The notes beneath the pieces were generated by a model. The model had not been told where the DNA came from and searched no databases. It saw only the letters and a program-made list of their open reading frames with translations. From assembly GCA_040754625.1 (NCBI GenBank), contig JBFMCF010000122.1, positions 1-51,839 on the forward strand: a stretch of 51,839 nt of DNA, given 5' to 3'. Position numbers and translations under genes: made by a program. Below are positions 22,972-50,348 of this stretch, in pieces. The first letter of the stretch is position 1. Each line of letters opens with the position of its first letter. The stretch comes from a bacterium (GTDB lineage Bacteria; JACRDZ01; JAQUKH01).

Positions 22972-22978
22972 TAGAGTC

Positions 22979-22993
22979 CTCTGGCAAATTAAT
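22979..22993 (+). repeat. 15-bp direct repeat, copy 1
   Basis: CTCTGGCAAATTAAT, 8 bases after the ExeA-like stop. The same 15 bases occur at 26276-26290, so the pair brackets the Wzz-kinase and Wzy genes. Confidence 0.6.
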
Positions 22994-22999
22994 TGTCAG

Positions 23000-23047
23000 G
23001 TGTTATGACAGTTTGAATTTGTTGCCAAATCCAAACCGTCATAACAC
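23000..23047 (-). repeat. Hairpin element copy 3 (core-less)
   Basis: 22-bp arms 23000-23021 and 23026-23047 around a 4-base loop. The arms resemble the outer arms of the large element at 30634-30825: 16 of 22 positions agree and all differences are transitions. The two mismatches are A opposite C, which become U-G wobbles on the minus strand. CATAAC-AC followed by TATAAATTA is shared with the right flank of that element. It appears to be the same outer stem without the conserved core. Confidence 0.6.
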
Positions 23048-23102
23048 TATTATAAATTAACTTTACACTAGAGGTTTTTTTGATTAATTAGAGGAGAACT
23101 TC

Positions 23103-24999: not shown

Positions 25000-26289
25000 A
25001 TGGGGTTTAATTTTCCTTTTCAAGTGCCTATAGTTATTATTTTGGGTTTAGTCCTTTTTTTGATTGCCTTTATAAAAATAGACATAGCCCTTATTATTTT
25101 CGTTTTCTCGATGCTGCTCTCGCCGGAAATTAACATAGGAGGCATCCCGGGAAGGGCCGTGGTTATCCGCTTTGATGATATTCTGCTGCTCATGATTTTT
25201 ATAGGCTGGCTGGCTAAGATGTCCATAAATAAAGAAATAGGGCTGATAAGAGTCAATCCAATCAATACGCCCGTCCTTTCCTATATTGTTGTTTGTTTAT
25301 TGTCAACAACCATAGCAGTTTTACAGGGAATTGTAAACCCTGTACACAGTATATTTTATATTCTGAAATATACGGAATATTTTTTAGTTTTTTTTATGGT
25401 AAGCAATAATATCAAGGACGAAAAACAGGTAAAAAAATTTGTTTTTTATATGCTACTTGTGTGCTTTATTGTAAGTATATTTGCTTTAATAACGTCTTTG
25501 AAAACAGGGCTTAGGGCTACTGCCCCTTTTGAAGGAAAGGAAGGAGAACCTAACACGTTTGCAGGGTATCTGATTTTAATGATGGGATTGGCTCTTGGAA
25601 TTTTCATTTATGCCGGTTCAATGGAGTTACATCTTGCATCAGGCTGTTTTTTCCTGTTTCTGCTGGCCCCTTTTATTTATACTTTTTCCAGGAGCGGCTG
25701 GCTCGGATTCTTCGGGATGTACCTGGCCTTTATATTTTTTTCAAAGAAACATAAAAAAATTTTAACGCTCGGCCTTATTTTATCTATTTTTATTTCCCCT
25801 TTTGTCCTGCCCGGCGCGGCCCAGAAACGTTATGACGCTACATTTGTCGGCAGAGACAATTATTATATTTTAGGGAAAAAAGTGACATTAGATGAATCAG
25901 CGGCCGCGAGAATCAAAGCATGGAAATGGTCCCTGCAAAAATGGGTGGAACGGCCGCTCCTTGGATACGGGGTGCCCGGCGGCGGGACCCTTTTTGATGT
26001 CCAATATGCCCGCATATTGAGGGAAGTGGGGATTACAGGATTGTTTGTTTTCTCGTGGATGATTTTAAGGCTCTTCAGGGTCACTAAAGACAATTTTGGG
26101 AATTCTGAAATCGGCAGCTTCGGACAAGGTTTAAATTTAGGATTTTTTTGTTCATTAATAGGCCTTTTGGTTATGGGTATCGGGTCTGAGATTTTTATTA
26201 TTATCCGCATTATGGAGCCGTTCTGGTTTTTGGCGGCAATAGTGGCGGTATTACCCGAGTTGAAAAATACTAGTGCTCTGGCAAATTAA
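25000..26289 (+). CDS. O-antigen ligase/polymerase family membrane protein (Wzy-like)
   Basis: 429 aa with about 10-12 membrane helices. A periplasmic loop from about residue 265 holds the Wzy_C-type pattern ARIKAWKWSLQKWVERPLLGYGVPGGG, where relatives have 'R...W......PL.G.G'. The gene starts 7 bases after the Wzz-kinase stop and is followed by a flippase, so polymerase (Wzy) is more likely than ligase. Sugar specificity cannot be read. Confidence 0.85.
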   Translation: MGFNFPFQVPIVIILGLVLFLIAFIKIDIALIIFVFSMLLSPEINIGGIPGRAVVIRFDDILLLMIFIGWLAKMSINKEIGLIRVNPINTPVLSYIVVCLLSTTIAVLQGIVNPVHSIFYILKYTEYFLVFFMVSNNIKDEKQVKKFVFYMLLVCFIVSIFALITSLKTGLRATAPFEGKEGEPNTFAGYLILMMGLALGIFIYAGSMELHLASGCFFLFLLAPFIYTFSRSGWLGFFGMYLAFIFFSKKHKKILTLGLILSIFISPFVLPGAAQKRYDATFVGRDNYYILGKKVTLDESAAARIKAWKWSLQKWVERPLLGYGVPGGGTLFDVQYARILREVGITGLFVFSWMILRLFRVTKDNFGNSEIGSFGQGLNLGFFCSLIGLLVMGIGSEIFIIIRIMEPFWFLAAIVAVLPELKNTSALAN

Positions 26290-26290
26290 T
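26276..26290 (+). repeat. 15-bp direct repeat, copy 2
   Basis: Second copy of CTCTGGCAAATTAAT; it encodes the last codons and stop of the Wzy-like gene. The pair could be the trace of a recombination that brought in or duplicated the intervening 3.3 kb. Confidence 0.6.
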
Positions 26291-26347
26291 CTAAGTTCTA
26301 TTAACAACTAACTTTACAATGTACTGTCACTATCAGGGAATTGGGAC

Positions 26348-30633: not shown

Positions 30634-30825
30634 GTTATGGCAATCCGGATTTATCGACTAAGTTTTTGATTAAGTATCTGTAGCTCAATTTCGCAGTGAT
30701 ATGCGCCCCCCATCCCCCATTCCGATAGTAATCGGAACGGGGTGTTTCTTCGCATATCATCTGCTCATTTCGCACAGATACTAAATCTTCGCCCTTTAAT
30801 GTCGATAAACCCAGATTGCCATAAC
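30634..30825 (-). repeat. Large structured hairpin element, copy 1
   Basis: 192-bp nested fold. Outer stem 30634-30658 with 30801-30825 (25 bp, two mismatches). Second stem 30668-30681 with 30774-30787 (14 bp, one mismatch). Third stem 30697-30705 with 30751-30759 plus 4 more pairs beyond a bulge at 30760. Terminal hairpin 30715-30726 with 30731-30742. The internal loop holds near-identical direct repeats GCTCAATTTCGCA and GCTCATTTCGCA. Mismatches in the outer stem and the terminal hairpin become U-G pairs on the minus strand. A second copy is at 39878-40057. Confidence 0.75.
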
Positions 30826-30877
30826 ACTGTCCTATAAATTATTTGTGGAAAAAACTGATAAACAAAGGATTCATCAA

Positions 30878-32008
30878 ATGGTAAATGTTTTGTATTTACA
30901 TGAGACTTCAATGCTTGCAGGCGCGGAAAACAGCCTTTGGAATTTAGTTAATAAAATTGATAAAGAACAATTTCATCCGGTATTTATTTGTCCTTGTGAA
31001 GGGCCGTTTGTTGACAAACTTAGACAACTGGGGATAAAAATATATTTTGTCAAATTCCCGCCGGTTAGAGAAATTTTAGGAATACCGCGGGCAACAGCTG
31101 AAATCCGCGGCATCACCAGGAAGGAAAAAATACATATTCTTCATTCCAATAGCATCAGGACACATATCTACGCGTCAATTGCGGGTAAATTAGATAAAAT
31201 TCCCGTAATCTGGCACCAGCGCAATATGCTTACGGGCGAAAAAATAGATCCTGACAGGCTGTTTTCTTTTTTGCCTGACAGGATTATTTGTAATTCATGT
31301 GCAATAGGAAAACGGTTTTTGGTCAAAGACAAACTTCCGGATAAAGTCAGAATAGTCCTTAATGGAGTTGATCTGGAAAAATTCAATCCATTTTTGAATG
31401 CTGTCGAAATAAAAAAAGAATTTGGCATACTCCCCGGCGAGATTGTTATCGGGATCGCGTCCCGCTTTAATGTTTTTAAAGGGCATGATACTTTTTTTAA
31501 GGCCGCGCAAATGCTTATTTATAATACGCCTTATAAACTGAAAAATTTAAAATTTTTAATTGCCGGCGGAGCGGTTTTTGAAGAAGATAAGAAAAGAGAG
31601 AAAGACTTGAGGAAAATGGTTCATGAATTGGGTATAAATGATAGAGTGGTTTTTACGGGGTTCAGGCGGGATATGCCGGAAATTTATGCGGCGATGGATA
31701 TTCTTGTGCTGCCGTCTGTTTATGAAGGATGTTCAAGGATAATTTTAGAATCAATGGCCTGCGGGAAACCGGTAGTAGCTACAAATTCGGGAGGAACACC
31801 CGAGATTTTAAAAGACGGTATCAGCGGTTTTTTGATTAAACCGGAAAATTCAGAGGCATTAGCGGAAAAAATCGCGGTCATGGTCCATGATATTGCGGCA
31901 GCAAAAAAAATGGGTGAAACAGGCAGAAAAATAGCCGAAGAAAACTTTTCTATAGAGAAAAACGTGGAGCAAATAGAAAAAATTTATCTGGAACTTATTC
32001 AAAAATGA
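30878..32008 (+). CDS. GT4 family glycosyltransferase
   Basis: 376 aa from ATG 30878, which has AAAGGA upstream; a GTG at 30845 in the same frame has no ribosome site. GT-B fold: LHETSMLAGAENSLWNLV at the N-terminus, IVIGIASRFNVFKGHD in the linker, and the C-terminal donor motif PSVYEGCSRIILESMACGKPVVATNSGG (E-x7-E type). Probably a retaining transferase for the surface glycan. It overlaps the GT9 gene by 4 bases. Confidence 0.92.
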   Translation: MVNVLYLHETSMLAGAENSLWNLVNKIDKEQFHPVFICPCEGPFVDKLRQLGIKIYFVKFPPVREILGIPRATAEIRGITRKEKIHILHSNSIRTHIYASIAGKLDKIPVIWHQRNMLTGEKIDPDRLFSFLPDRIICNSCAIGKRFLVKDKLPDKVRIVLNGVDLEKFNPFLNAVEIKKEFGILPGEIVIGIASRFNVFKGHDTFFKAAQMLIYNTPYKLKNLKFLIAGGAVFEEDKKREKDLRKMVHELGINDRVVFTGFRRDMPEIYAAMDILVLPSVYEGCSRIILESMACGKPVVATNSGGTPEILKDGISGFLIKPENSEALAEKIAVMVHDIAAAKKMGETGRKIAEENFSIEKNVEQIEKIYLELIQK

Positions 32009-33120
32009 ATAAAAATACTTACTTAACCATAAGGCGAACTTTATTATTGCCGTTTTTATTTATAAGAAAAATAAAATTCCCAAAGGATTTCGAAATTAAA
32101 AAAATACTGGTTTTACGGCATGACCGGATAGGAGACATGATATTATCGACAGGAATATTTCATGCTTTAAAGAAAAAATATCCTGACGCTTATATTATTG
32201 TGCTTGCATCAAAAACCAATAGTGATATTATTCAAAATAATCCTGATGTTGATGAAATCCTGATTTACAAAGGGATTAAGCAGTTTATAAAAGAAATTAG
32301 GAAGAAGAAAGTAGATTTAGCTGTTGATTTATTCTTTACTTATGAATTAAAACAGGCTTTTTTGGCTTATCTATCCGGGGCAAGATACAGGTTAGGGTTT
32401 GAAAACGCGGGCAGGGAGATTTTCTTTAATATAAAAGGGCCGGGCATGGACAATAGCTGTTCTATGAACGACCATCTTGCCGGGCTTATAAGTTGCCTGG
32501 ACATGGATTTTAAAGGTTATCAATTTCGCCTAAATTTATCTGATGAGGAAAAGAAATGGGCTGAAAATTATATGACTTCTCATGGCATTAAAAAGGACAG
32601 CTTTAAAATAGCGGTGCATCCTGGCGGTTTCTATCCAAGCCAGCGCTGGCCGGAAGAAAATTTTGTAAACATATCCGAGAAAATCATGGAGAATTATTCT
32701 TTTCAAATAATTCTTTTTGGAGATAAAAATGAAGAAAAGTTATTAAAAAATATAAAACATAAAATAGAAAGTGGAAATGTCAGCATATTTTGCAGTTTAA
32801 CTCTCAGGCAGGCTGTATCTTTATTAAATGAGTGTGATTTTTTTATAGGAAACAATTCCGGTTTACTGCATATCGCGTACGCTTTAAAAATACCGGCCGT
32901 GTCAATGATGGGTCCGACAGACCCTGTTCTTTGGCGGCCGGAGGGAGAGAATAATATTGTTCTCCGGAAAGATTTGGAATGCAGCCCGTGCGGCAGGGCA
33001 AAATGCGAAGATCATAAATGCATGAATTTAATATCAGCGGATGAGGTTTTTGAAGCTGTGAAAAACCTTGTGGAAGAAGTTTATGGAGCTAAAAAGTATA
33101 AAAAAGATTCTTGTAATTAA
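32005..33120 (+). CDS. GT9 (heptosyltransferase-type) glycosyltransferase, first copy
   Basis: 371 aa. GT9 motifs: KILVLRHDRIGDMILSTG, AVHPGGFYPSQRWPEENF, and the donor site FIGNNSGLLHIAYALKIPAVSMMGPTDP, followed by the family's C-terminal Cys cluster CSPCGRAKCEDHKC. Known members transfer heptose to lipopolysaccharide core, but many GT9 proteins in O-unit loci move other sugars. ATG overlaps the previous stop (ATGA). Confidence 0.9.
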   Translation: MNKNTYLTIRRTLLLPFLFIRKIKFPKDFEIKKILVLRHDRIGDMILSTGIFHALKKKYPDAYIIVLASKTNSDIIQNNPDVDEILIYKGIKQFIKEIRKKKVDLAVDLFFTYELKQAFLAYLSGARYRLGFENAGREIFFNIKGPGMDNSCSMNDHLAGLISCLDMDFKGYQFRLNLSDEEKKWAENYMTSHGIKKDSFKIAVHPGGFYPSQRWPEENFVNISEKIMENYSFQIILFGDKNEEKLLKNIKHKIESGNVSIFCSLTLRQAVSLLNECDFFIGNNSGLLHIAYALKIPAVSMMGPTDPVLWRPEGENNIVLRKDLECSPCGRAKCEDHKCMNLISADEVFEAVKNLVEEVYGAKKYKKDSCN

Positions 33121-34153
33121 CCTTGGGGGCATTGGTGATGTGCTTTTATCGCTTCCGGCTTTAAAGGCGTTAAGAAAATTTTATCCCCAGGCGGAAATTT
33201 ACGGCCTTTTTAATTATAGAAGTTGCGATTTGGTAAAAGGCCTGCCGTATTTTAATAAAATTGTAATTTTTGATATCGAATACGGGGGATTGATATTCTT
33301 TAAAAATATTTTTACCAGCTTTAAAATATTGCTGATATTGCGCAGGGAACATTTTGATTTGGCAATAAATATGCGCACGATTGTTTCTGAAAAAAGCGCT
33401 GAAAAAATGAAGTTTATATTTAATATAATTAATCCCAAAATTAAAGCAGGCAGGGATACAGATGGAAAAGGCTGTTTTTTTGACATAAAAATCCCGGAAA
33501 CACTTATTGGCAAAAAATATGAAATGGAATACGATATTGAAACAATAAAAGCTCTCGGGACAGATGTTTCTGATAAAAATATAGACTTTCAGATAGTGGA
33601 GGAAACAGCAAATAAAATCAATGAATTGCTAAAAAAAGAAGGGATATTTGCGGAAGATGTGCTTATTGGCATTCACCCCGGAGGTATGCCGACGCGGCGG
33701 TGGCCTGTGGAGAATTTTTCTAAAGCAGCAATAGAAATCAATAATATATTTAAATGTAAATTTATAATTACGGGCGGCAAGGATGATTTATATCTGGCTG
33801 ATGAATTAAAAAAAATGGCCGGCCTTAAAATGATTGATATGACCGGCCGGCTTGACATAAAAGAACTGGGCGCCCTGATTAAACGATGTAATGTATATAT
33901 TTCCAACGATACAGGACCGATGCACATGGCGGCAGTTTTGAAAACACCGTTAATAGCAATATTCGGACCGGGGGATTTGACCCGGTTTGATCCCCGGAAT
34001 ATTTCCGGGAAGGCAATTGTTTTATACACAAAAAAAGAATGTTCGCCATGTGAAAAAACAACTTGTGATTCGATGGAATGCTTAAAGGAAATTTCGGCGG
34101 GAGAAGTTGTTTCTGCGGCAAAATTATTGCTGCATAGTGATCTGTTAAATTAA
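33083..34153 (+). CDS. GT9 (heptosyltransferase-type) glycosyltransferase, second copy
   Basis: 356 aa from ATG 33083 (GGAAG upstream); a GTG at 33068 is possible. Same layout as the preceding gene: ILVINLGGIGDVLLSLPAL, GIHPGGMPTRRWPVENF, YISNDTGPMHMAAVLKTPLIAIFGPGD and Cys cluster CSPCEKTTCDSMEC. The two differ widely, so they are old paralogues with probably different acceptors. It overlaps the first copy by 38 bases. Its stop sits in a 16-bp palindrome (34144-34159). Confidence 0.9.
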   Translation: MELKSIKKILVINLGGIGDVLLSLPALKALRKFYPQAEIYGLFNYRSCDLVKGLPYFNKIVIFDIEYGGLIFFKNIFTSFKILLILRREHFDLAINMRTIVSEKSAEKMKFIFNIINPKIKAGRDTDGKGCFFDIKIPETLIGKKYEMEYDIETIKALGTDVSDKNIDFQIVEETANKINELLKKEGIFAEDVLIGIHPGGMPTRRWPVENFSKAAIEINNIFKCKFIITGGKDDLYLADELKKMAGLKMIDMTGRLDIKELGALIKRCNVYISNDTGPMHMAAVLKTPLIAIFGPGDLTRFDPRNISGKAIVLYTKKECSPCEKTTCDSMECLKEISAGEVVSAAKLLLHSDLLN

Positions 34154-34185
34154 TTTAACAATGTGCTAACGTAAAAAATAGATTC

Positions 34186-34857
34186 ATGAAAATGATGAAA
34201 AAAATTTATTACTGGTTTCACGAAAAAATGTCTGACCCCGGGGAGCGCGGCGAATATTCTGCCGGCCGGTGGCAGGATATGGTAAGAAAAGAAGCTCTCA
34301 GGTTATGCCGGAATGATAAGGGAAAATTATTGGAAGCAGGTTGCGGAGAGGGATTATTTTTAGTTAAATTGGCGTCCCTGAATAAAAAATTAGACATATA
34401 TGGAATAGATAACCGTCCGGAAATATTAGAGAAGGCGGAGAAAAAAATTGAAGATAATAATTGCAGGAATATAAAAGTAATCAAGGCTGACGCGGCATCA
34501 ATGCCTTTTGAAGATTCATATTTTGATACAGTTGTTTGTATAAATGTTATTTTTAACCTGCCGTCGGAGGACCTTTTAAAAAAAGTATTAAAAGAAATAT
34601 CAAGGGTGTGCAAAAAAGACGCAGCGTTTATACTGGATTTCAGGAATAAGAAGAACCCTTTCCTGTATTTAAAATATAAACTTGCTCCCTTTTATGACGA
34701 AACGGTAAAAAACCTGCCTTTAAAAACATATACTTTAAGAGAGATGTCCCAATTTGCGGAAGAGGCAGGTTTTACGGTGGAATGCAAAAAAATGATCGGG
34801 CCAAAGATAAGCCTATTGGCCCCGATAATAATTTTAAATTTAAGAAAGAAAAGCTAA
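34186..34857 (+). CDS. Class I SAM methyltransferase
   Basis: 223 aa. Motif I LLEAGCGEGLFLVKLA (about residues 44-59), acidic loop IYGIDNRPEILEKAEKKI, ADAASMPFEDSYFDTVVCINVIFNLP, consistent with Methyltransf_11/25. The region after the fold (about 160-223) is short and may form the substrate cap. Substrate unknown. Its stop overlaps the start of the aminotransferase gene (TAATG), so they are coupled. Confidence 0.87.
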   Translation: MKMMKKIYYWFHEKMSDPGERGEYSAGRWQDMVRKEALRLCRNDKGKLLEAGCGEGLFLVKLASLNKKLDIYGIDNRPEILEKAEKKIEDNNCRNIKVIKADAASMPFEDSYFDTVVCINVIFNLPSEDLLKKVLKEISRVCKKDAAFILDFRNKKNPFLYLKYKLAPFYDETVKNLPLKTYTLREMSQFAEEAGFTVECKKMIGPKISLLAPIIILNLRKKS

Positions 34858-36035
34858 TGATTAAAAAAATTACGCAGGTCGGACCCGGCGCGGGTTTGGA
34901 AAATCTGGTTTCAGGCTGCAGGGGCGTTTTTAATGAGCCTGTGGAAAAGTTCGCGCGGGATTTATCGGATTATTTTTACCCGGAAAAAATTTATTTGTTA
35001 AATTCGGGTTTGGCCGCGTTTTACATAATTCTTGAGACGGTAAAAAACCTATCGTCAAAAAAAGAGGTGATATTGCCGGCATATACGGCACCGAGTATGG
35101 TATTGCCGGTATTAAAGGCAAATTTAAAACCGGTTTTATGTGATATAGCCAAAGATAATTTTAATGTGGATTTAAATTCAATTTCTGAGATTATTACGAA
35201 AGATACATTATGTATCGTGCCGACACATCTTTTCGGAATACCGGTGAGCGGTATTGAAGACATGAAGGAAAGGTTTCAGGGAATATTTATAATTGAAGAT
35301 TGCGCTCAGTCATTGGGCAGTACAATAAACGGGAAAAAAACAGGGTGTTTTTCCAATGCGGGTTTTACAAGTTTCAACAGGGGGAAAAATCTATCTACAT
35401 ACGGCGGAGGGTGTATTTTTACCGGCTCATTTGAACTGGGTGAAAAGGTCAAGGCCGGGATTGACAGCCTGGCTGAGCAGGCAATATTTTCTAAATCCAT
35501 TCTCCCTTTGAAACTTACAGCATTTTCTTTAGCTGTAAATCCGTATATGTATGGATTGTTTCATTTGATTATTTCAAGGTTCAAAGATAATCAGGTGCCG
35601 GAAAATTTTTACAGCCGCAAATATTCCAATTTCCAGGCGGGTGTCGGTAAATCATTATTGGATAAAATTGATGGATTTTCGGAAAAAAGGTATAACAATG
35701 GAATGTTCCTGGCAGAAAAACTTTATGGTTTAAAAGAGATAATTGTCCCCGTAACAAGCAAAGAAGCAAAACCGGCGTTTAACAGATTTCCGGTATTATT
35801 TAAAAATTTGGAATTGCGGCAAAAAATAAAGAACGCCCTTTGGGCATCCGGTTTTGATACATCGTTTATGTATTTGAAACCCCTGCATCATATTTTTGAT
35901 TTAGGTAACAGGAAAGAGGATTTTCCGAATGCAAATTACCTGGCGGAACATTTGCTGACATTACCCGTTCATCCCTTACTTGGGAAAGACGATATGGAGA
36001 GAATAATTCAGGTAATAAAAAAGGCGGCTGGATGA
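34857..36035 (+). CDS. DegT/DnrJ/EryC1-family PLP-dependent sugar aminotransferase
   Basis: 392 aa from ATG 34857, coupled to the previous gene. Family landmarks: LLNSGLAAFYIIL, VILPAYTAPSMVLPVLKANLKPVLCDI, VPTHLFGIPVSG, IIEDCAQSLGS and the cofactor segment TSFNRGKNLSTYGGG, where the Lys in GKN is the likely Schiff-base residue. The members make amino sugars from nucleotide-keto sugars. A missing dehydratase partner is not seen in the window. Confidence 0.87.
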   Translation: MIKKITQVGPGAGLENLVSGCRGVFNEPVEKFARDLSDYFYPEKIYLLNSGLAAFYIILETVKNLSSKKEVILPAYTAPSMVLPVLKANLKPVLCDIAKDNFNVDLNSISEIITKDTLCIVPTHLFGIPVSGIEDMKERFQGIFIIEDCAQSLGSTINGKKTGCFSNAGFTSFNRGKNLSTYGGGCIFTGSFELGEKVKAGIDSLAEQAIFSKSILPLKLTAFSLAVNPYMYGLFHLIISRFKDNQVPENFYSRKYSNFQAGVGKSLLDKIDGFSEKRYNNGMFLAEKLYGLKEIIVPVTSKEAKPAFNRFPVLFKNLELRQKIKNALWASGFDTSFMYLKPLHHIFDLGNRKEDFPNANYLAEHLLTLPVHPLLGKDDMERIIQVIKKAAG

Positions 36036-37207
36036 TTCCTTTAAGAAACGCAAAAAGGTTTTTATTTAAAGCTTATAATCAGCCCTGTTACGCTTTAAAG
36101 GTCTTTAAAAAAAGACTGATGGCGTATTTATATTATTATTTGTCAAACGGCAAAAGCAGTTATCCGGAAGCTGTAACATTATTTTTAACTCACCGCTGTA
36201 ACCTGCATTGCAAAATGTGCGGGCAGTGGGGGGAGGGCGGGGTCACAAGGAAACAATCCGCGGAATATATCCGCGAAGAACTTTCTTTTGATGAATTAAA
36301 AATGGTTATTGATGATTTATCCCCGTTTGGGCCGAATATCACGCTTTTCGGCGGTGAACCCCTGATTTACAAAAATTCTATCGATACCATAAAATACATC
36401 AAAAACAAAAACATGCATTGTCTTATGATCACAAATGGTTCTTTAATTGAACCTAAGGCGCAAGAATTAGTCGATGCCGGTTTGGATGAACTTAATGTTT
36501 CGCTGGACGGCGGCCGTGAACTGCATAATGAAATAAGAGGAATGGACGGGCTTTTTGACCGGGTTCTAAATGGATTAAAAAAAATCAACCATTTCAAAAA
36601 AGAAAAAAATAAAAAAAGGCCGTTTATTAACCTGCAATGCACTATTACCAAATATAATTATGAGAATCTTGAACAACTATTGAACGCGGCAGAGGAAACA
36701 GGGGCGGATTCATTGACATTTCATAATTTAATTTTTCTTGAAAACGGCCTTATTGAAAAGCAGAAAAAATATGACAAACTTTTAAACTGTTCGTCCCTGG
36801 ACTGGAAAGGATTTATTTCCGTGCCGGACATAGACGTTTCAATTTTATTTAATAAAATGGAGGAAATCAAAAAAAAGGTAACTGAAATGGCAGAAAAAGG
36901 ATTTGATTTAAAAGTTGATTTCTACCCTAATTTTTCAAAAAAAGGACTGTTTGAATATTATCAAAATCCTTTATTTCTGCCGCGGGAATATTCGCCCCGC
37001 TGTGTAAGTCCCTGGATTAGCGCGTATATTTTTCCTGACGGCGAAACCAGGCCGTGCTTGAATTTTGATTATTCATTCGGCAATATAAAAAAAGATAAAT
37101 TTACCCTGATTTGGAATGGAGAGCGGGCAAGAAATTTCAGGAAGACCCTGAAAAGAAACAAAATATTCCCGGTTTGCATAAGATGCACCGAGCTTTACAG
37201 GTATTAA
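36032..37207 (+). CDS. Radical SAM protein
   Basis: 391 aa. 4Fe-4S motif C56-NLH-C60-KM-C63, then ITLFGGEPLIYKNSIDTIKYI and the core strands (LDELNVSLDGGRELHNEIRG). A C-terminal SPASM-like cluster is suggested by RCVSPWISAYIFPDGETRPC and VCIRCTEL. In polysaccharide loci such enzymes may modify lipid carriers or sugars, but no substrate is evident. It overlaps the aminotransferase gene by 4 bases. Confidence 0.87.
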   Translation: MIPLRNAKRFLFKAYNQPCYALKVFKKRLMAYLYYYLSNGKSSYPEAVTLFLTHRCNLHCKMCGQWGEGGVTRKQSAEYIREELSFDELKMVIDDLSPFGPNITLFGGEPLIYKNSIDTIKYIKNKNMHCLMITNGSLIEPKAQELVDAGLDELNVSLDGGRELHNEIRGMDGLFDRVLNGLKKINHFKKEKNKKRPFINLQCTITKYNYENLEQLLNAAEETGADSLTFHNLIFLENGLIEKQKKYDKLLNCSSLDWKGFISVPDIDVSILFNKMEEIKKKVTEMAEKGFDLKVDFYPNFSKKGLFEYYQNPLFLPREYSPRCVSPWISAYIFPDGETRPCLNFDYSFGNIKKDKFTLIWNGERARNFRKTLKRNKIFPVCIRCTELYRY

Positions 37208-37210
37208 AAA

Positions 37211-38377
37211 ATGCCAAAAAAAATCAAAATCGCGCAAGTTATAACACGGTTAGACTGGGGAGGTTCGCCTGATGTTGTCCGGGCAATCTGTCTCGGGGCG
37301 GATAAAGAAAAGTATGATGTCAGGCTCATTACAGGCCCTTCAAAAAATCTAAGCTCAAATACAAAATTTTTTTTAGAAGAGTTTAAAGAAAATACTTTCA
37401 TTATTCCTGATTTGAAACGGGATATCAGTCCGGCCGGTGATTTTAAAGCCTTTATCAAACTATTTTTGTTGTTCCGGAAGGAAAAATTCGGCATTGTCCA
37501 CACGCATACCGCGAAGGCCGGAATATTGGGAAGGAAAGCCGCGTGGCTTGCAGGCGTAAATTATATTATTCATACCTCTCACGGGCATAATTTTTATGGT
37601 TATTTCGGGGCGATGGGGAGCAGGCTCGTAGTTGTTTTAGAAAAAATAATGGATATTTTCACAAGCAAGGTTATTGCCCTGACTGAACTGGAAAAAGAGG
37701 ACCTTGTGAAATTTAAGATAAGCAGGCCGGATAAAATTATTGTGTTTGACAGCGGGATAGAATTGGACAAATTTAAAAAAACAAGTCCGGACATTTTTAA
37801 AAAAAAAGAAGAATTTAATATAAGGCCGGGTGAAATGGTGGTCGGGATGATTAACCGTTTAGAAACAGTCAAGGGCCCCGAATATTTTATAGAGGCGGCG
37901 AAGATTATAAGCGATGCAATTCCAGGAGTAAAGTTTTTGATTGTCGGAGAAGGTTCTCTTAGAAAAAAACTTGAAAGCATGTGCCGGGGATTTGGAATCC
38001 ATGATAAAACAAATTTTACGGGGTGGAGGGAGGATGTCCCGGAAATCCTCCCGGTTTTAGATTTACTGGTGCTCCCGTCCTTAAATGAGGCGGTAGGGAG
38101 AATACTAATTGAAGCCGGGGCCTGCGGGGTCCCCGTTGTTGCCGCGAATGTCGGCGGGATTCCGGAAATTGTCCAAAATAATGAAACAGGATTATTGGTT
38201 GTTCCAAAATCTTCCGGTGATTTGGCGGAAGCGGTAATCAGCCTGCTGAAAGATAAAAATAAGCGGATAAAGATGGGTAATTCAGCCGCGGTATGGGTAA
38301 ATAATAAATTTAATATTGAAAATCTGGTTAAAAATATTTATGGATTATACAGTGAAATTTATAAAAATAAAAATTGA
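37211..38377 (+). CDS. GT4 family glycosyltransferase
   Basis: 388 aa. GT-B motifs: IAQVITRLDWGGSPDVVRAI, FGIVHTHTAKAGILGRKAAWLAGV, VGMINRLETVKGPEYF, and donor site PSLNEAVGRILIEAGACGVPVVAANVGGIPEI. The HTHTAKAG segment is common in WbnK/EpsD-like enzymes of exopolysaccharide loci. It follows the radical SAM gene by 3 bases. Confidence 0.92.
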   Translation: MPKKIKIAQVITRLDWGGSPDVVRAICLGADKEKYDVRLITGPSKNLSSNTKFFLEEFKENTFIIPDLKRDISPAGDFKAFIKLFLLFRKEKFGIVHTHTAKAGILGRKAAWLAGVNYIIHTSHGHNFYGYFGAMGSRLVVVLEKIMDIFTSKVIALTELEKEDLVKFKISRPDKIIVFDSGIELDKFKKTSPDIFKKKEEFNIRPGEMVVGMINRLETVKGPEYFIEAAKIISDAIPGVKFLIVGEGSLRKKLESMCRGFGIHDKTNFTGWREDVPEILPVLDLLVLPSLNEAVGRILIEAGACGVPVVAANVGGIPEIVQNNETGLLVVPKSSGDLAEAVISLLKDKNKRIKMGNSAAVWVNNKFNIENLVKNIYGLYSEIYKNKN

Positions 38378-39866
38378 TAAAAATTTTCGCATGGCAGTAA
38401 TATTATTTTTTTTAACTTCTGCCGGAACAGGCACAAATGCGGGTGGAAATCTTTTGCAGGCCCAATCGGTTATCCAAATCAGTTCTGACATAACTGACGG
38501 TAAATACTCGATCCAGGAAATTATTGACATCGCGAAGATTAATGACATAAAAGTTGTCATGTTGACCGACAGGGATTTTATGAGCTGGGAATACGGGTTT
38601 TGGCCCCTCAGGAAAATCATTAAAAAAAAAGTGGAATCGAATTCCATGCAAAGTTACGGGATTGAAAAATACCTCAGGGAAATTGAAGAAATACAAAAGA
38701 AAAATCCGGATATTGTTTTGATCGCAGGGGTTGAATCCGCGCCGTTTTATTACTGGGATGGGAAGCCTTTCAGGGATAATTTTAAGATAATTGACTGGCA
38801 TAAGCATATGCTGGTTTTTGGATTAAATAAGGCGGAAGATTATAAAAACCTTCCGTCCGTTGCCAATAAAAAAAGTTTATTGCTGCCTTTTAAATTAAAA
38901 AATATATATTTATTCTGGCCCGTGCCGGTTTTGATTGTTGGTTTTCTATGTTTAAGAAAAAGAAAATTCAAATATAAAGACTCACAGGGAAATTCTTTAG
39001 GGCCGTATTCACTGCCATGGCAGGTTTTCGGCGGTTTGTGCCTGTTCGCGGGACTGATATTTTTCATTAATAATTATCCCTTTCATGATTTTAAATATGA
39101 CCAGTATCATGGTGCACAGGGTATATCCCCCTACCAAAATTTTATTAATTATGTTAACCAAAAAGGCGGGATGAGTTTTTGGGCGCACCCTGAAATAGAA
39201 AATATAATGCAATATGATGAGGCAAAAGTTGAAACAAAGGAATATCCGGAATATTTATTGGAATCGAGAAATTATACGGGATGGACAATATTTTACGAAG
39301 GCGATGAAAAGGTAGGCCCGCCTGGCGGGATATGGGATAAGGTCTTGAAAAACTATTGCATGACCGGTGGAGGCCTCCCTGTTTGGGCGATTGGAGGATT
39401 GGGATTTGACCAGGCAGGTAACTTTAACGAGGCGGTAAAGGATTTAAGAACAGTATTTTTGGTCCCCCAAATAAATAGAGAGTCAATTTTAAGCGCGTTA
39501 AAAAACGGGAAAATGTATGTAGTAAAAGGCAGGGACTGCGGGAATTTTATCCTGGAAAGTTTTGTTGTAAAAGACAGCCTTTCAGGTGTTAATGGGACTA
39601 TCGCGGATGAATTAAATTTAAAAGGCAAACCGGTAATTAATATTAAAGGCCGGATAATTAATTGGAAAAATAACGAAAAAATAACAGTTAAATTGATAAA
39701 AGACGGCGTTATTGTTAAACTGTATGAAGTCAACAGCCCTTTTGAAGTAAGTTATACCGACGAATATTTTTATGAAAATAAGAAAAGTTATTATCGCCTG
39801 GAAATTAATACGCCTGAGAGGGTTTTGGTGAGTAATCCCGTATTTGTAAGTACTCTGTTACGTTAA
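38340..39866 (+). CDS. Membrane protein with PHP-like metal-dependent domain
   Basis: About 508 aa. The start is uncertain: ATG 38340 and GTG 38352 give a basic n-region before a hydrophobic segment (MAVILFFLTSAG), while ATG 38391 lacks it; none has a clear ribosome site. PHP-like traces are QISSDITDGKYSIQEIIDIAKINDIKVVMLTDRD, LIAGVESAP, FWAHPEI and WAIGGLGFD. The usual first His pair is replaced (SSDITDG, TDRDF), so activity is doubtful. Two membrane helices (about residues 185-205 and 225-245) interrupt the domain, a layout seen in other exported PHP-like proteins. Function unknown. Confidence 0.65.
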   Translation: MDYTVKFIKIKIDKNFRMAVILFFLTSAGTGTNAGGNLLQAQSVIQISSDITDGKYSIQEIIDIAKINDIKVVMLTDRDFMSWEYGFWPLRKIIKKKVESNSMQSYGIEKYLREIEEIQKKNPDIVLIAGVESAPFYYWDGKPFRDNFKIIDWHKHMLVFGLNKAEDYKNLPSVANKKSLLLPFKLKNIYLFWPVPVLIVGFLCLRKRKFKYKDSQGNSLGPYSLPWQVFGGLCLFAGLIFFINNYPFHDFKYDQYHGAQGISPYQNFINYVNQKGGMSFWAHPEIENIMQYDEAKVETKEYPEYLLESRNYTGWTIFYEGDEKVGPPGGIWDKVLKNYCMTGGGLPVWAIGGLGFDQAGNFNEAVKDLRTVFLVPQINRESILSALKNGKMYVVKGRDCGNFILESFVVKDSLSGVNGTIADELNLKGKPVINIKGRIINWKNNEKITVKLIKDGVIVKLYEVNSPFEVSYTDEYFYENKKSYYRLEINTPERVLVSNPVFVSTLLR

Positions 39867-39877
39867 TTTTTAATAGA

Positions 39878-40057
39878 GTTGCAATGGTTCAGATTTGTCG
39901 ACAAAGGCTCACGATTAAGTATCTGTAGCTCAATTTCGCAGTGATATTCGCCCCCCATCCCCCATCTTCGATGGGGTGTATCCGAATATCATCTGCTTAT
40001 TTCGCACAGATACTAAATCTTGTTCCTTTAATGTCGTCAAATCTGAACCATTGCAAC
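39878..40057 (-). repeat. Large structured hairpin element, copy 2
   Basis: 180-bp fold with the same order of stems as copy 1. Outer stem 39878-39902 with 40033-40057 (25 bp, one mismatch). Second stem 39913-39926 with 40006-40019. Third stem 39942-39950 with 39983-39991. Terminal hairpin 39960-39966 with 39970-39976. The first 35 bases of the core are identical to copy 1. The outer arms differ from copy 1 at 10 of 25 positions yet stay complementary to each other. Confidence 0.75.
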
Positions 40058-40138
40058 TCATGACAAGAGTGCCAATAATTTGCGTAACAGTGTAGTAGAC
40101 TTTAAGATTTAGGAGGATATTAACGATAATAGTAAAAA

Positions 40139-40423
40139 ATGAACCCAGCACCTCAAAAATATCATTATGTATATATACTAAACAGTACTAAAAAAGATTT
40201 TCTATATATTGGAGCAACTTCTGATTTAAAAAATAGATTAAATGAACACAGAGAGGGTAAATGTTATTCAACTAAAAAATATTTGCCCGTAAAACTAGTA
40301 TATTATGAAGCATTCTTATCGAAAAGCGATGCTTTTGATAGAGAAAAGAAATTGAAATATCATGGTAAGAGCCTAAAATTACTAAAAAATAGAATATGTA
40401 ATTCTTTAAGAGGTGCTGGGTGA
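40139..40423 (+). CDS. GIY-YIG nuclease domain protein
   Basis: 94 aa. Single-domain GIY-YIG protein: YHYVYILNSTKKDFLYIGATSDLKNRLNEH gives the Y-V-Y and Y-I-G strands with the conserved Arg; KLVYYEAF and DAFDREKKLKYHGKS follow, with the catalytic-type Glu in DREKKLK. Function of stand-alone members is unknown. The first and last codons lie in a 12-bp inverted repeat, which fixes the ends of the gene as a unit. AGGAGG is 22 bases upstream of ATG, too far for normal use. Confidence 0.87.
   Translation: MNPAPQKYHYVYILNSTKKDFLYIGATSDLKNRLNEHREGKCYSTKKYLPVKLVYYEAFLSKSDAFDREKKLKYHGKSLKLLKNRICNSLRGAG
40143..40421 (+). repeat. 12-bp inverted repeat bounding the GIY-YIG gene
   Basis: ACCCAGCACCTC at 40143-40154 and GAGGTGCTGGGT at 40410-40421 are perfect reverse complements. 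They encode the second to sixth residues (NPAPQ) and the last residues (RGAG). The right arm also provides a GAGGTG ribosome-site-like sequence and the GTG start of the next gene. Confidence 0.7.
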
Positions 40424-44596: not shown

Positions 44597-44816
44597 ATTA
44601 TGAATTCGGCACTTAACTGTTAGTTTTGGTTTTTATTATAGATAACTAAGAAATGTATGTCAAGATATAATTATTGTATATGGCTTAAGAGTATGATATT
44701 ATTTGCACTATAATTGTAATTCATCAATAGTTAAATCAATTAATAACTTGGAGATAAAAAGTGAATTTTATCAACAATGTTATCCCATCAGGAAGTCTCC
44801 GGAAAGCGTAATAAAT
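44597..44816. promoter_or_regulatory. Divergent promoter region before the Cmr operon
   Basis: 220 very AT-rich bases between the SLBB gene (minus) and cmr1 (plus). A TATAAT at 44709-44714 points to cmr1, about 100 bases upstream of its ATG, but no good -35 is seen. Nothing resembling a CRISPR repeat or a gene is present. Confidence 0.4.
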
Positions 44817-45857
44817 ATGGAAAAATTAACGGATGCTTTGAAAGTGATTGAATTTAAAATTAAATTCATTACACCGCTCCTTATTCATGGAGAGAATTCA
44901 AGAGCAGATACTATTGGATTAACCGGCAAAGCATTAAGAGGATGCTGGAGATTCTGGTTCAGAGCATTAATAGGTGGGCTAATAGATAATATTGAACCAA
45001 AAAAATTGTTAGAACTTGAAAGCAAAATATTTGGGTCTGCAGATGATAAAGTTGGGGCAAAATTTAGAATTTATTTACAAGAACTCGGTCAACGAGAAAA
45101 AATCGAAGCTTATGTGGGATTTAAATATACAGAAGGCCGTAAAAGAGGAGAAGAAGCAAAATCTGAAGGTTATAAAGAAGGGATTGAATATAAAATAACA
45201 ATCATTCCAAGAAAAGAAGAATTCCCAAAAGAAATTCTTCTTTCTGCAATCTGGCTTTGGGCTAATCTTGGGGGTGTTGGGCAAAGAGCCAGAAGAGGTT
45301 TTGGATCACCTGCAATTGAATTGATTGATAAGATTGCCAATCCTTTCAAAACTGAAAATCTCGAATTACATACAAAATCAGAATTCCAAACGTCAGAAGA
45401 AATAAAAGGACATCTAACTGACGGACTAAAAAAAGTTTGGCAAATTTTTGAACAATGGATTCCTAATAATAGTGGACATAAAATTACGGGAGATATATCA
45501 AAAAATGATGAACCTGCAAATGCTAATTATTTCATTTTAAAGAGTATAAAACAGATAGGGGTTGGTAATGAGGTGTTTAGTGATTTGAAAGAGGCAATTG
45601 AAGCTATTCACGGAAATCACAATTGTGATGAGCTGGGCTGGGTAGATTTACATAATAATAAACCTTCGAAACGTATGGCTTCACCTGTTTTAACAAGATT
45701 ATACAAGGTTAATAGTGGTTTTATTCCTATTATTACTTGGTGTAACCAAAACGGTGTATTACCGAATTGCAACAGTCCAACGGGTTGTGTACAACTTTAT
45801 CTTAAGAAAGCAAAGTTTGATAATAGTAGCTGGCTTACTGGGAGTCCAAATGAGTAA
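44817..45857 (+). CDS. cmr1: Type III-B CRISPR RAMP protein Cmr1
   Basis: 346 aa from ATG 44817 (GGAAAG upstream); an upstream TTG frame lacks support. RAMP fold cues: IEFKIKFITPLLIHGENSRA at strand 1, LRGCWRFWFRALIGG, and the Gly-rich loop GGVGQRARRGFGSP. Cmr1 sits at the head of the Cmr complex and helps hold the target RNA. First gene of a six-gene operon in the standard order; overlaps cmr2 by 8 bases. Confidence 0.9.
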   Translation: MEKLTDALKVIEFKIKFITPLLIHGENSRADTIGLTGKALRGCWRFWFRALIGGLIDNIEPKKLLELESKIFGSADDKVGAKFRIYLQELGQREKIEAYVGFKYTEGRKRGEEAKSEGYKEGIEYKITIIPRKEEFPKEILLSAIWLWANLGGVGQRARRGFGSPAIELIDKIANPFKTENLELHTKSEFQTSEEIKGHLTDGLKKVWQIFEQWIPNNSGHKITGDISKNDEPANANYFILKSIKQIGVGNEVFSDLKEAIEAIHGNHNCDELGWVDLHNNKPSKRMASPVLTRLYKVNSGFIPIITWCNQNGVLPNCNSPTGCVQLYLKKAKFDNSSWLTGSPNE

Positions 45858-47748
45858 AGATATTTTTGAAAAGTTATCAAAAAAATTTGGTAATGATAAA
45901 AATCTTTATCTTTTAAATGTTTCAATCGGTCCTGTCCAAGAATTTATTAAAGAAGCAAGGAAAACAAAAGATTTATGGACAGGAAGTTACCTCTTATCTC
46001 AAATTGCATATCAAACCATGAGGCCAATCCTTGAACATTTTAATAAAGATGTATTTATTTATCCCAGGATTGAAAATTCTGCGTCCACATCTCAATTTTC
46101 AAAAGTTCCAAATCATTTTCTTGCGATAGTTGATGATGTAATTATTAGTAAATTTAAAAACAATGAAATTCAAAAACCAGTATATAAATATTGGAGTGAT
46201 TTATCAAAAAATATCTATGATTATATTGCTGAAAAAAATAATAAGAAATTTAAGTGGAATGAAAATGATTTATGGAATAAACAAATAAATGATTGTTTCC
46301 AAATCTATTGGGTAGCAAAAACAATAAAACTTAGCGATCTTAAGGGTAATTACATTGAAACACATAACAATATCCAACAGTTTATGGAAGAAAGGAAATT
46401 GACAAGGACATTCAACCAATGGGATGGAAACTCAGCTTTTAAATGTCCGCAATGCGGGCATAGGGAAATTATTGGTCCAATCAAAGATAATAAAAATTTT
46501 TGGGAGGAATTAAGGAAAGACAAAAAAATATTTTTTAAAATAAAAGAAAATGAGAAATTATGTGCAGTATGTTTGGTAAAAAGGTTTGTTGAGGACAAAA
46601 TTCCTTTTGAATCTTCAAGTGATATTGCTTCAAAAAATTTTAAAGATTTTCTTATAGGAAAGAAAATCGATGAGGAAATTAATAATTTTTTAACCAACAT
46701 AAAAAAGCTTTTTGAAATATTGAATATTGAAAAAATAAATTCCATTAGCGAAATACCCGGGGACTGGCTTTATGAAGAAAGGTTCAACTTTAAAAAATTG
46801 GAAAAAGAATTTCCACATGTGCGCAATACAAAAATTATAGATACATTAAAAGCATTAAAAGAAAATTTAAAAGAATCAAAAGAAAAGTATAAAATATCTC
46901 CTCAAAAATATTACGTCTTACTGATGATGGATGGAGACAAAATAGGGGACTTAATGTCGCGTAAAGATATTTATGGCCAAATAGCTTGCAGTGATGCAAT
47001 TGGTGAATTGGGAAACAAAATATTACCGGATATAATTTATAGATGGGGTGGCTATCCAGTTTACTCAGGCGGAGACGATCTTCTCGCTTTTGGCCCTATA
47101 GAAAAATCGATCTCCACTGCTTTTAAATTACAAAAGTCCTTTAGTGAAAAATTAGAAACGACATGCAGTATAAGTCTTGTAATCGTTCATTATCAGGATT
47201 CTTTGCGAAGAGCGATGGAAGAATGCAGGCAATCTCTCGAAAGTGCAAAAGAGCATTATGGACGAAATTCTCTCTGTATAACCTTAATGCTTTCTTCGGG
47301 AACACTTACAAGTGGCGGATGCAAATGGTATTTACCAATTTATGATTTTTCTGTTGGATTTACAGATTTTATGAATAATTTAATAAAATGGATGGGCAAG
47401 GAAAAAGATGGACTTAGTTCAAGCTTTATATATGATATATTAAAAGAATTGCCTGCTTTTTATAAATTTCATAAAAATATTCAACCTTATTTTTCAATTG
47501 AAATGTTTGAATCAGAAATCACCAGACTTTTAGACCGCCATATTCCAGAAGAGTCTTTTTTTAAAACGGCTCCGGATTACAAAAAAAAATCTGAAATATT
47601 TGTGAAAATTATTTCTTCGTTGGGAGACCCAAAATATATTAATAAGTTTAATGGCTGGAGAACAGATATTATCGATACTAAAGACAATTTGGAATCCATA
47701 CTTAGAATTTGTGCATTCCTTAATCGTGAAGGTTTAAAGGAGATATAA
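45850..47748 (+). CDS. cmr2: Type III-B Cas10 (Cmr2) with intact GGDD, no HD domain
   Basis: 632 aa from ATG 45850. Starts LNVSIGPVQEFIKEARKTKDLWTGSYLLS, the Cmr2 opening. Zinc finger C199-PQ-C202 and C238-AV-C241. First palm motif MMDGDKIGDLM (about 359-369) and cyclase motif Y-SGGDD with GGDD at 407-410 are intact. No HD dipeptide is present and no N-terminal HD domain precedes the opening, so no DNase is expected. I infer a cyclic-oligoadenylate-producing Cas10 that works through the CARF gene downstream. Confidence 0.92.
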   Translation: MSKDIFEKLSKKFGNDKNLYLLNVSIGPVQEFIKEARKTKDLWTGSYLLSQIAYQTMRPILEHFNKDVFIYPRIENSASTSQFSKVPNHFLAIVDDVIISKFKNNEIQKPVYKYWSDLSKNIYDYIAEKNNKKFKWNENDLWNKQINDCFQIYWVAKTIKLSDLKGNYIETHNNIQQFMEERKLTRTFNQWDGNSAFKCPQCGHREIIGPIKDNKNFWEELRKDKKIFFKIKENEKLCAVCLVKRFVEDKIPFESSSDIASKNFKDFLIGKKIDEEINNFLTNIKKLFEILNIEKINSISEIPGDWLYEERFNFKKLEKEFPHVRNTKIIDTLKALKENLKESKEKYKISPQKYYVLLMMDGDKIGDLMSRKDIYGQIACSDAIGELGNKILPDIIYRWGGYPVYSGGDDLLAFGPIEKSISTAFKLQKSFSEKLETTCSISLVIVHYQDSLRRAMEECRQSLESAKEHYGRNSLCITLMLSSGTLTSGGCKWYLPIYDFSVGFTDFMNNLIKWMGKEKDGLSSSFIYDILKELPAFYKFHKNIQPYFSIEMFESEITRLLDRHIPEESFFKTAPDYKKKSEIFVKIISSLGDPKYINKFNGWRTDIIDTKDNLESILRICAFLNREGLKEI

Positions 47749-47750
47749 AA

Positions 47751-48890
47751 ATGTCTTTATATGTTTACATTGAACCGCGGGACACCGTTTTTTTTAGGGA
47801 TAATCGTCCTTTTGATGCTGGAGTAGACACAATTGCTGAATCAATAATCCCCTCTCCATTAACTCTGTTTGGAGTAATTGGAAACTATTATCTCGATATT
47901 AATGGAATATCATTAAAGGATTTTAAAGATAACGGTAATACTAAACTTGGCAACTATGATCCTGAGCTTAAGAATACCCGTTTAAAAATTAAAGGCCCGT
48001 TTTTTGAATATGATGAAAAAGTATATTTATCGACACCGGCCAATATATGGGCATCGGGAGCAGAGTCTTATGTTTTAAAACCAAGGGATAGAAATAATTT
48101 AGAGTGGGATATCACTCAGCCTGATTTGCAGTCACTGGAAATTCCAAGATTCGGATATGGAATCCAACCTGAAACATTGGGAGGCTTTCTTTCTTTAGAA
48201 GGTATTCGTCAATATTTATCTATGGATGAGATTGATATATATAATAATGGGAAGAAAGAAGAAGATTTATTTATAAAAGAAAATCGATATGGTCACCAAC
48301 TAAACGATTTTTCCCAAACTGTAGAGGAAGGACAGTTATATTCGGCAAGACATATTAGATTTAAGGATAGCTTATCTAATAAAAAAATTAATAAAACTAA
48401 GTTTATGCTTGTAGTAGACGGACTTGAGGGATCAGATTTTACAGAAAAGGTGACACGCGTTGGTGGTGAAGGTAAATTAACAGGAATTTATACTGAAGAA
48501 AAAAATGAAAAATTAATTCCTGATAACAACAGAGTGTTAGAAAAAATAAAAAAAGGGAAAAAATTTCTGTTGTATTTTATTACGCCAGCTATATTTAAGG
48601 AAGGATGGGATAGAAATTGGCCGGTTGAATTTAAAGATACAAAAATGGTTGGAGCATGTGTCAATAAACCTGTTTTTATTAGCGGTTGGCAGAAAAGTGG
48701 AAAGGGAATGAAAGGGAATCCTCGTTCGTTATTTAAAACGGTTCCAGCAGGCAGTGTTTATTTTTTTAAAGCCGACACTTGGGATGACAATAGTTTCCAA
48801 GCTTTATATGAAAAATATAATTTTAGAGAAAGTCTTTCGGATTTTTATCCTTGTGCTGGTTTTGGAACAGCTCTTATTGGAGCATGGTAA
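47751..48890 (+). CDS. cmr3: Type III-B CRISPR protein Cmr3
   Basis: 379 aa. Family opening YVYIEPRDTVFFRDNRPFDAG, then IIPSPLTLFGVIGNYYL and the closing Gly-rich segment CAGFGTALIGAW. Cmr3 pairs with Cas10 at the base of the complex and binds the crRNA 5' handle. It begins 2 bases after the cmr2 stop with AAAGGAG upstream. Confidence 0.9.
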   Translation: MSLYVYIEPRDTVFFRDNRPFDAGVDTIAESIIPSPLTLFGVIGNYYLDINGISLKDFKDNGNTKLGNYDPELKNTRLKIKGPFFEYDEKVYLSTPANIWASGAESYVLKPRDRNNLEWDITQPDLQSLEIPRFGYGIQPETLGGFLSLEGIRQYLSMDEIDIYNNGKKEEDLFIKENRYGHQLNDFSQTVEEGQLYSARHIRFKDSLSNKKINKTKFMLVVDGLEGSDFTEKVTRVGGEGKLTGIYTEEKNEKLIPDNNRVLEKIKKGKKFLLYFITPAIFKEGWDRNWPVEFKDTKMVGACVNKPVFISGWQKSGKGMKGNPRSLFKTVPAGSVYFFKADTWDDNSFQALYEKYNFRESLSDFYPCAGFGTALIGAW

Positions 48891-48911
48891 GAATCAAAAG
48901 GAGAAAAGAAT

Positions 48912-49895
48912 ATGGCAAAATATGGTTTAATGTTTATCAGTGCGATAACCCCATTAAATAATGGGTCAGGAGAAGGTTTGGGAATAGTTGATAATCCTGT
49001 AATAAGAGAGAGGACAACGCAATTTCCAATTATTCAATCTTCATCTATTAAAGGTGTATTAAGAGATAAATTTGGTGAAGACGCCTCCCCTGAGGTCCGG
49101 GTGCTATTTGGGCCGCCATCTGGTCAAGGTGATTCCCATGCAGGAGCTGTCTGTATAAGTGATGCCCAAATTATTGCTTTTCCAATTAGGTCTCTAAAGG
49201 GCGCTTTTGTATGGGCTACATCACCACTGACGCTTTATAGATTTTGGCGTAATGTTGAAATGTCAGGATTTAATTCTACATTTCCAAAGCTAAAAAATCT
49301 CATCGACAAGATTAATAGTTCTTTTAATAATTTAGATAGTGTTGTATTATGCCCATCGGGAAAAAATTATTTAGAAATTAGTAGTAAAATAATTCTTGAG
49401 GAGTTTCCTAAAACCATACGAAATTCCCCTGATTTGGCGTCATTATTGGAGAATTTTGCTAAGGAAATTGGCCTAAAAATTTTTACCCCTGTTGATACAT
49501 TTTTAAAGGACGAATTTGAAAAGAAACTTGTTTTACTTACCGAGGATTCATTTCGATATTTCGTTTCAAATGCCACGGAGATAATGCCCAATATAAAAAT
49601 TAACGAAAAAGGGACAACGGAAAAGGGTTCGTTAAGGTATACAGAATTTCTTCCATCAGAAACTATTCTCTATAGTTTAATGTCTTATGAGAATCCAAAA
49701 CTGCCAGTTGATGAACCTGATGTTTTAAAAAAAATCGAAAATATTGAAATTAAAAAGAGTGATAATTCCGTTTGGAAGTTTGAAAGTAAAGATGTTTTTG
49801 TGGAAGCTTTATTTGAACAAAAAATACCGGATATTATTCAGGTTGGCAGTGACGAAACAACAGGTAAAGGAATTGTTAAATTGAAATTAATTTAA
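48912..49895 (+). CDS. cmr4: Type III-B backbone RAMP protein Cmr4
   Basis: 327 aa. RAMP pattern TPLNNGSGEGLGIVDNPVIRERTTQFPIIQSSSIKGVLR; the Asp in VDNP is the likely target-RNA cleavage residue of Cmr4/Csm3 proteins. The usual His in 'LHxG' is replaced by Asn (NNGSG). C-terminal Gly-rich GSDETTGKGIVKLKL. Several copies line the crRNA in the complex. Good AAGGAG before the ATG. Confidence 0.9.
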   Translation: MAKYGLMFISAITPLNNGSGEGLGIVDNPVIRERTTQFPIIQSSSIKGVLRDKFGEDASPEVRVLFGPPSGQGDSHAGAVCISDAQIIAFPIRSLKGAFVWATSPLTLYRFWRNVEMSGFNSTFPKLKNLIDKINSSFNNLDSVVLCPSGKNYLEISSKIILEEFPKTIRNSPDLASLLENFAKEIGLKIFTPVDTFLKDEFEKKLVLLTEDSFRYFVSNATEIMPNIKINEKGTTEKGSLRYTEFLPSETILYSLMSYENPKLPVDEPDVLKKIENIEIKKSDNSVWKFESKDVFVEALFEQKIPDIIQVGSDETTGKGIVKLKLI

Positions 49896-49904
49896 GGAGA
49901 GAGC

Positions 49905-50348
49905 ATGCCAGAACAAGAAAGAAATTTAGAACATAAAAGAGCAGAATATGCTTTTAAATGTATTTCTGAAATTATTGAATTAAAAAATCCAAAATATGAA
50001 GCACAGTACAGAAGTGTTGCGCTTTCGTCCGGGGTGTTAATTCAAAAGTCAGGTCTTATGCAGGCATTGGCTTTTTATATAAGCAAAAAAGAACATCACA
50101 AAAAGCTTGCAGAGCATATTTTAAAATGGATACAATGTCCGGGCATAAATGTTGAACTTCAATTCCAATGTCTTTTAAATATTAGTGACGAAGACATGGT
50201 TCGGAAAACAATGGAAACCCGGGATTTTATCTCATGGCTAAAGAGATTTGCTGAAGGCAGGCTCAGAAAAGAAGAAGACAATGTAATAATAACGTCAGGA
50301 AATTCTCAAGAAAAGGTTGAACAAAATGTCAATAATACCGGGTTGTAA
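49905..50348 (+). CDS. cmr5: Type III-B small subunit Cmr5
   Basis: 147 aa, nearly all helical, as expected for the small subunit that lines the target RNA. Pattern RAEYAFKCISEIIE, YRSVALSSGVLIQKSGLMQALAFYISK and LAEHILKWI fit Cmr5. AAGGAGAG precedes the ATG. A C-terminal tail of about 25 residues (EEDNVIITSGNSQEK...) is longer and more polar than the core. Overlaps cmr6. Confidence 0.87.
   Translation: MPEQERNLEHKRAEYAFKCISEIIELKNPKYEAQYRSVALSSGVLIQKSGLMQALAFYISKKEHHKKLAEHILKWIQCPGINVELQFQCLLNISDEDMVRKTMETRDFISWLKRFAEGRLRKEEDNVIITSGNSQEKVEQNVNNTGL

Follow-up and report, generated by a model that had tools for sequence, protein, structure and literature searches.

Several kinds of bacterial MITE, among them Correia/NEMIS, ERIC and RUP, measure 100-200 bp, end in TA and form long stem-loops (PMC2229807; reviewed in PMC10969869). 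The enterobacterial ERIC element (IRU, RU-1) is a palindrome of ~127 bp that forms one long stem-loop, has TA ends, is intergenic and is co-transcribed with its neighbours (PMC2229807). An effect on mRNA stability is reported for ERIC. In the Correia/NEMIS element of Neisseria, terminal repeats of ~24 bp with TA ends enclose a conserved core, and an RNA hairpin is described (PMC2229807; PMC2649163). RUP of Streptococcus pneumoniae is small and has a TA target; its presumed mover is an IS630 transposase (PMC2229807).

The hairpin elements described here, found in a 51,839-nucleotide stretch of DNA (the window) from a member of an uncultured bacterial phylum, are best classed as a new family of palindromic MITEs, similar in kind to ERIC, Correia and RUP, apparently undescribed and referred to here as family A. 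Like ERIC, they are dispersed palindromes in a long stem-loop with TA ends, but their terminal repeats are ~30 bp as against the 7 bp listed for ERIC, several interiors share these terminal repeats, and blastn (E <= 0.01) found no match in 5,426 E. coli genomes. Compared by description, Correia/NEMIS likewise has a conserved core within TA-ended terminal repeats, whereas in family A the variation of the arms from copy to copy is co-ordinated. RUP shares the small size and the TA target, but an IS630-type DDE_3 transposase, the sole transposase family searched for, is absent from the window's genome. By analogy, family A probably works like known bacterial MITEs; our sequence comparisons lend no support to membership by descent in any of their families. 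It is a recognisable kind of genomic parasite and no new class of gene, with an unusually sharp contrast between a frozen core and co-varying arms.

With moderate confidence, we favour the reading that the two hairpins of the window, W30 and W39, are copies of a non-autonomous palindromic MITE of ~230-260 bp in which pairing of the minus strand may matter. Their parts are as follows.

30634-30825 (192 nt), minus as the putative structured strand: full hairpin W30, around which terminal repeats are not clearly recognisable
30634-30658: left outer arm of W30 (five-copy alignment)
30801-30825: right outer arm of W30 (five-copy alignment)
30670-30785, minus strand: conserved core of W30, comprising an internal loop (minus strand GCGAAATGAGC ... 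GCGAAATTGAGC) and the terminal hairpin
39878-40057 (180 nt), minus strand: full hairpin W39 (fold and sequence)
39848-40097, minus strand: whole mobile element around W39, from terminal repeat to terminal repeat
39848-39877, plus strand: left terminal repeat of W39, AAGTACTCTGTTACGTTAATTTTTAATAGA
40068-40097, minus strand: right terminal repeat of W39, TACTACACTGTTACGCAAATTATTGGCACT

Both hairpins, which the initial annotation had reported at these positions, are far more stable than shuffled sequence. Folded with 13-14 nt of flank, W30 has a minimum free energy of -88.7 and W39 of -95.8 kcal/mol, against means of ~-39 for dinucleotide shuffles (z of -13.4 and -14.2, respectively; 0 of 200 shuffles equally good). 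Alignment also bears out the details recorded at the time: the left arms, each 25 nt long, have diverged at 10 positions with pairing kept in each copy, the third-stem pair G30703-C30753 is replaced by T39948-A39985 (alignment columns 71/121), and the terminal hairpin changes length, being shorter in W39. Seven mirrored changes that separate W30 from W39 form a contiguous run at arm positions 4-10.

The window's genome (2.75 Mb, 138 contigs) contains five full family A copies in a non-exhaustive scan with BLAST and a covariance model. This genome search, of the kind that the initial annotation had proposed, brought in the three beyond W30 and W39, and full copies occur on both contig strands.

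C33, 81483-81675, plus strand: full copy (BLAST and covariance model)
C90, 5522-5714, minus strand: full copy (BLAST and covariance model)
C55, 151-342, minus strand: full copy (BLAST and covariance model)

Truncated copies on two further contigs, C42 and C67, are 94-96% identical to the left arm of W39, and the sequence of C67 suggests that a deletion has joined two GTA triplets. Separately, a 24-bp stretch at C7:2710-2733 (locus L011) matches the conserved 3' connector, CTAAATCTTGATCCTTTAATGTC, and is a possible remnant. The other three genomes of the phylum that were searched, one of them from the same genus, had no family A copy, leaving one positive genome of four. The exact core 21-mer had no match in GTDB contigs, and no match to the element appeared in the viral contigs, plasmids and phages searched. 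Two sets of candidates were set aside: 16 loci retrieved from GTDB contigs with a loose internal-loop pattern, which lacked covariance model support (best 7.9 bits, E of 4.6), and a first batch of weak left-end matches, which were low-complexity T-runs. The initial annotation had recognised no RNA family in the hairpins; in agreement, the whole window had nothing above the gathering threshold in Rfam, and permissive scans of W30 and C33 gave matches that were all far below gathering scores.

The five-copy alignment of full hairpins (73 pairs) keeps 94.1% of cells paired. In the covariation test that had been proposed, both sides have changed in 16 of the 73 pairs, against a shuffle mean of 7.9 (0 of 500 shuffles as high), and double changes fall to four or fewer when the partner is slid by one to three columns. 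Twelve of the 16 double changes are pure transitions, a route through G.U. Within a copy, left and right arms are Watson-Crick paired at 92% of positions, versus 62% across copies. Variation is concentrated in the outer arms (32 of 50 columns variable versus 5 of 86 in the core; Fisher p = 2e-13), with between-copy identities of 54-78% for arms and 94-100% for cores; the 5' connector varies in 11 of 12 columns and the 3' connector in 4 of 15. The near-invariant core may be the recognition target of some protein or process.

Similarity between family A copies extends beyond the hairpin. The hairpins of C33, C55 and W39 are enclosed by inverted repeats near TAGTGCTCTGTTAAnTTAATTTTTAATAGA, which are less regular in C90 and not clear in W30. 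The terminal repeats end in or close to TAGTGC (end motif TAGTGCTCTGTTAA), and TA is present at the ends in C33, C55, W39 and the related family B, introduced below. At C33, the stop codon between a histidine-kinase gene and a GAF-like gene is the site of the whole element; in the genome of a sister species of the same genus (G001), only 25 bp separate that stop codon from the next ATG, giving an empty site. An empty site was found at this one locus only, the tgt locus being non-syntenic. The element is flanked by AATAG on both sides in C33 and by ACTAG on both sides in C55; W39 has AGTAC on the left and AGTAG on the right, and C90 has no clear target duplication. From these sequences the duplication could be either 5-bp ANTAG or TA, and the element ends given here are provisional. 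The elements are dispersed, ~230-260 bp long and free of a transposase gene, with TA-containing terminal repeats in most copies and an empty site at one locus, as expected of a bacterial palindromic MITE. Their insertion at TA-containing sites would be carried out by a transposase that is supplied in trans and acts on their ends.

Shorter members in the window share the terminal repeats.

22972-23071: short element W23, with terminal repeats and a 44-nt arm hairpin (23002-23045) and without the core
26271-26326: short element W26, in which the two terminal repeats nearly abut
34135-34168: minimal 34-bp element W34, TAGTGATCTGTTAAATTAATTTAACAATGTGCTA

W23 was also detected by the covariance model. 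Such members may arise by slippage, through which the palindrome would tend to lose its centre.

Mobility is shown or strongly supported by the terminal repeats, the empty site, the core-less members and the occurrence of another interior within the same ends. A stationary structured non-coding or cis-regulatory RNA family present in several copies by chance would also give a conserved core, variable helices and covariation, which together are the pattern of structured RNA, but it is very improbable in view of the empty site, the ends shared with other interiors, the fragments and the neighbours, which differ at each copy and place the copies among unrelated genes. The original description of the hairpins as structured RNA or single-stranded DNA stands as regards structure; the empty site and shared ends make them the interior of a larger mobile element rather than free-standing units.

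The other interior, also palindromic, defines family B, whose elements are ~260-276 bp long. A search with the terminal-repeat pattern located seven copies in the window's genome and two in that of the sister species.

L094 (1501-1764), L097, L100, L102, L103, L104 and L105: family B loci in the window's genome
L095 and L098: family B loci in the sister genome G001
L096, about 300-400 and 1500-1590: inverted pair of element copies in G002, a genome from another family of the same phylum; they lie 1.2 kb apart and their ends are unrelated

Covariation in the family B arms affects 13 of 30 columns and includes transversions, and the mismatches in these arms (5 A.C and 3 G.T) have no strand bias. 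Both G002 elements enclose the 3' part of the family B interior, within ends that are entirely different (GGGGTCGTCATGAAATAA...). More speculatively, ends could be interchangeable carriers of several structured, near-frozen single-stranded RNA or DNA cores, with stems evolving via G.U on one defined strand and cores swapping ends across families of the phylum; we regard this as unlikely at present.

The pairing defects of family A are distributed unevenly between the strands. On the window strand, the 20-bp hairpin arms contain eight A.C and no G.T mismatches (two-sided p = 0.008), two each in W30, C33, C90 and C55, and these A.C mismatches are G.U pairs on the minus strand. The core-less W23 was excluded from this count, since only the mismatches themselves would reveal its orientation. 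In each of the five full copies the minus strand folds more stably, with energies (minus versus plus, kcal/mol) of -101.7 versus -82.9 for W30, -94.5 versus -89.8 for W39, -104.9 versus -84.4 for C33, -94.4 versus -69.0 for C90 and -95.7 versus -75.3 for C55. Its internal loop places GCGAAAUGAGC opposite GCGAAAUUGAGC, with GA/AG oppositions flanking AAU/AUU, where GA/AG pairs could form around AAU/AUU. In the outer repeats of family A, A.C and G.T mismatches are roughly even when compared by eye. Because the deviations in the arms become G.U on the minus strand, we infer that pairing is important in this strand, either in a transcript or in single-stranded DNA, though with less certainty than the other steps proposed here. 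The asymmetry hints at selection on the minus strand as RNA or single-stranded DNA, a suggestive result drawn from eight mismatches in related copies of one genome; if one-strand selection exists, the data favour the minus strand, on which the initial annotation was silent.

Neither promoter nor terminator scans produced a signal clearly exceeding that of shuffles. The only long reading frame through the core, on the minus strand (MTTLNGQDLVSVRNEQMICEE...), is open in several copies and broken in W39, and was rejected as coding; its C33 and C90 versions had no Pfam match.

The divergence of paired arms had been taken to mean selection rather than recent duplication. A recent simple duplication is indeed contradicted, but selection does not follow: maintained pairing alone is no proof of it, because template switching yields the same outcome and because family B co-varies without a strand preference. 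DNA template switching creates and maintains hairpin stems with multibase compensatory changes (PMC8794818), and the same mobile element could owe its covariation to this process (quasipalindrome correction) or to exchange between lineages, without selection on RNA or single-stranded DNA and with the core conserved through recent spread or a need of mobility. This account is possible but doubtful. It draws on a documented maker of compensatory stem changes (PMC8794818; also the quasipalindrome literature). The contiguous run of seven mirrored changes between W30 and W39 fits a copying event, and the covariation of family B, with its transversions and no strand bias, speaks for this account as well; the 8:0 asymmetry of A.C versus G.T and the transition bias in family A would not be expected from strand-neutral copying. 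Copying probably contributes to the covariation, given the lack of strand bias in family B, the documented process and the mirrored block in W30/W39, and for selection specifically we regard the strand asymmetry of the hairpin arms as the principal evidence. With strand-specific mismatches in the arms of family A and none in those of family B, a single genome and a single element class provide a natural test case for whether hairpin covariation comes from RNA selection or DNA template switching, and a warning that covariation between two copies is no proof of a functional RNA.

Gene context was read from mechanical open reading frames. Many elements lie in short gaps at the 3' ends of genes, and the structured strand is antisense to an adjacent gene end in all seven family A copies that can be oriented; a read-through mRNA would therefore carry the other strand, a point against the favoured reading. 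C90 has gene ends on both sides, one of them sense to the structured strand. Among the eight family B copies that have a gene end nearby, seven point the same way. Position and orientation may reflect either targeting or survivorship.

This fixed orientation relative to neighbouring genes, together with strand-specific pairing, imperfect but constant internal loops and variable stems of constant shape, would suit a folded single-stranded DNA substrate for recombination or transposition with one strand used, in the manner of IS200/IS605-type ends or integron attC sites. A double-strand cut-and-paste transposase would be a better fit to terminal repeats that are nearly symmetric and have TA at each side, and the copies are dispersed and form no cassette arrays, making such a substrate a remote prospect beside the favoured palindromic MITE.

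In nine elements, drawn from both families, the element supplies the stop codon of the upstream reading frame. The stop is the TAG of the element end in C33, C90 and two family B copies (B_C97 and B_G1C7), and a TAA at the same place in C42; in W26, W34, W39 and a further family B copy (B_G1C30) the frame runs a few codons into the terminal repeat before stopping, the left end of W39 thereby terminating the gene at 38316-39866. Insertion near a gene end would be tolerated because the terminal repeat itself provides the stop codon, and these loci document gene-end insertion with termination by the element's own end.

Directly downstream of W39 is a gene for a small GIY-YIG domain protein (40139-40423); nothing suggests an action of this protein on W39. 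Further along, adjoining the polysaccharide locus, 44703-51129 encodes a Type III-B CRISPR module in the order cmr1, cas10/cmr2, cmr3, cmr4, cmr5, cmr6.
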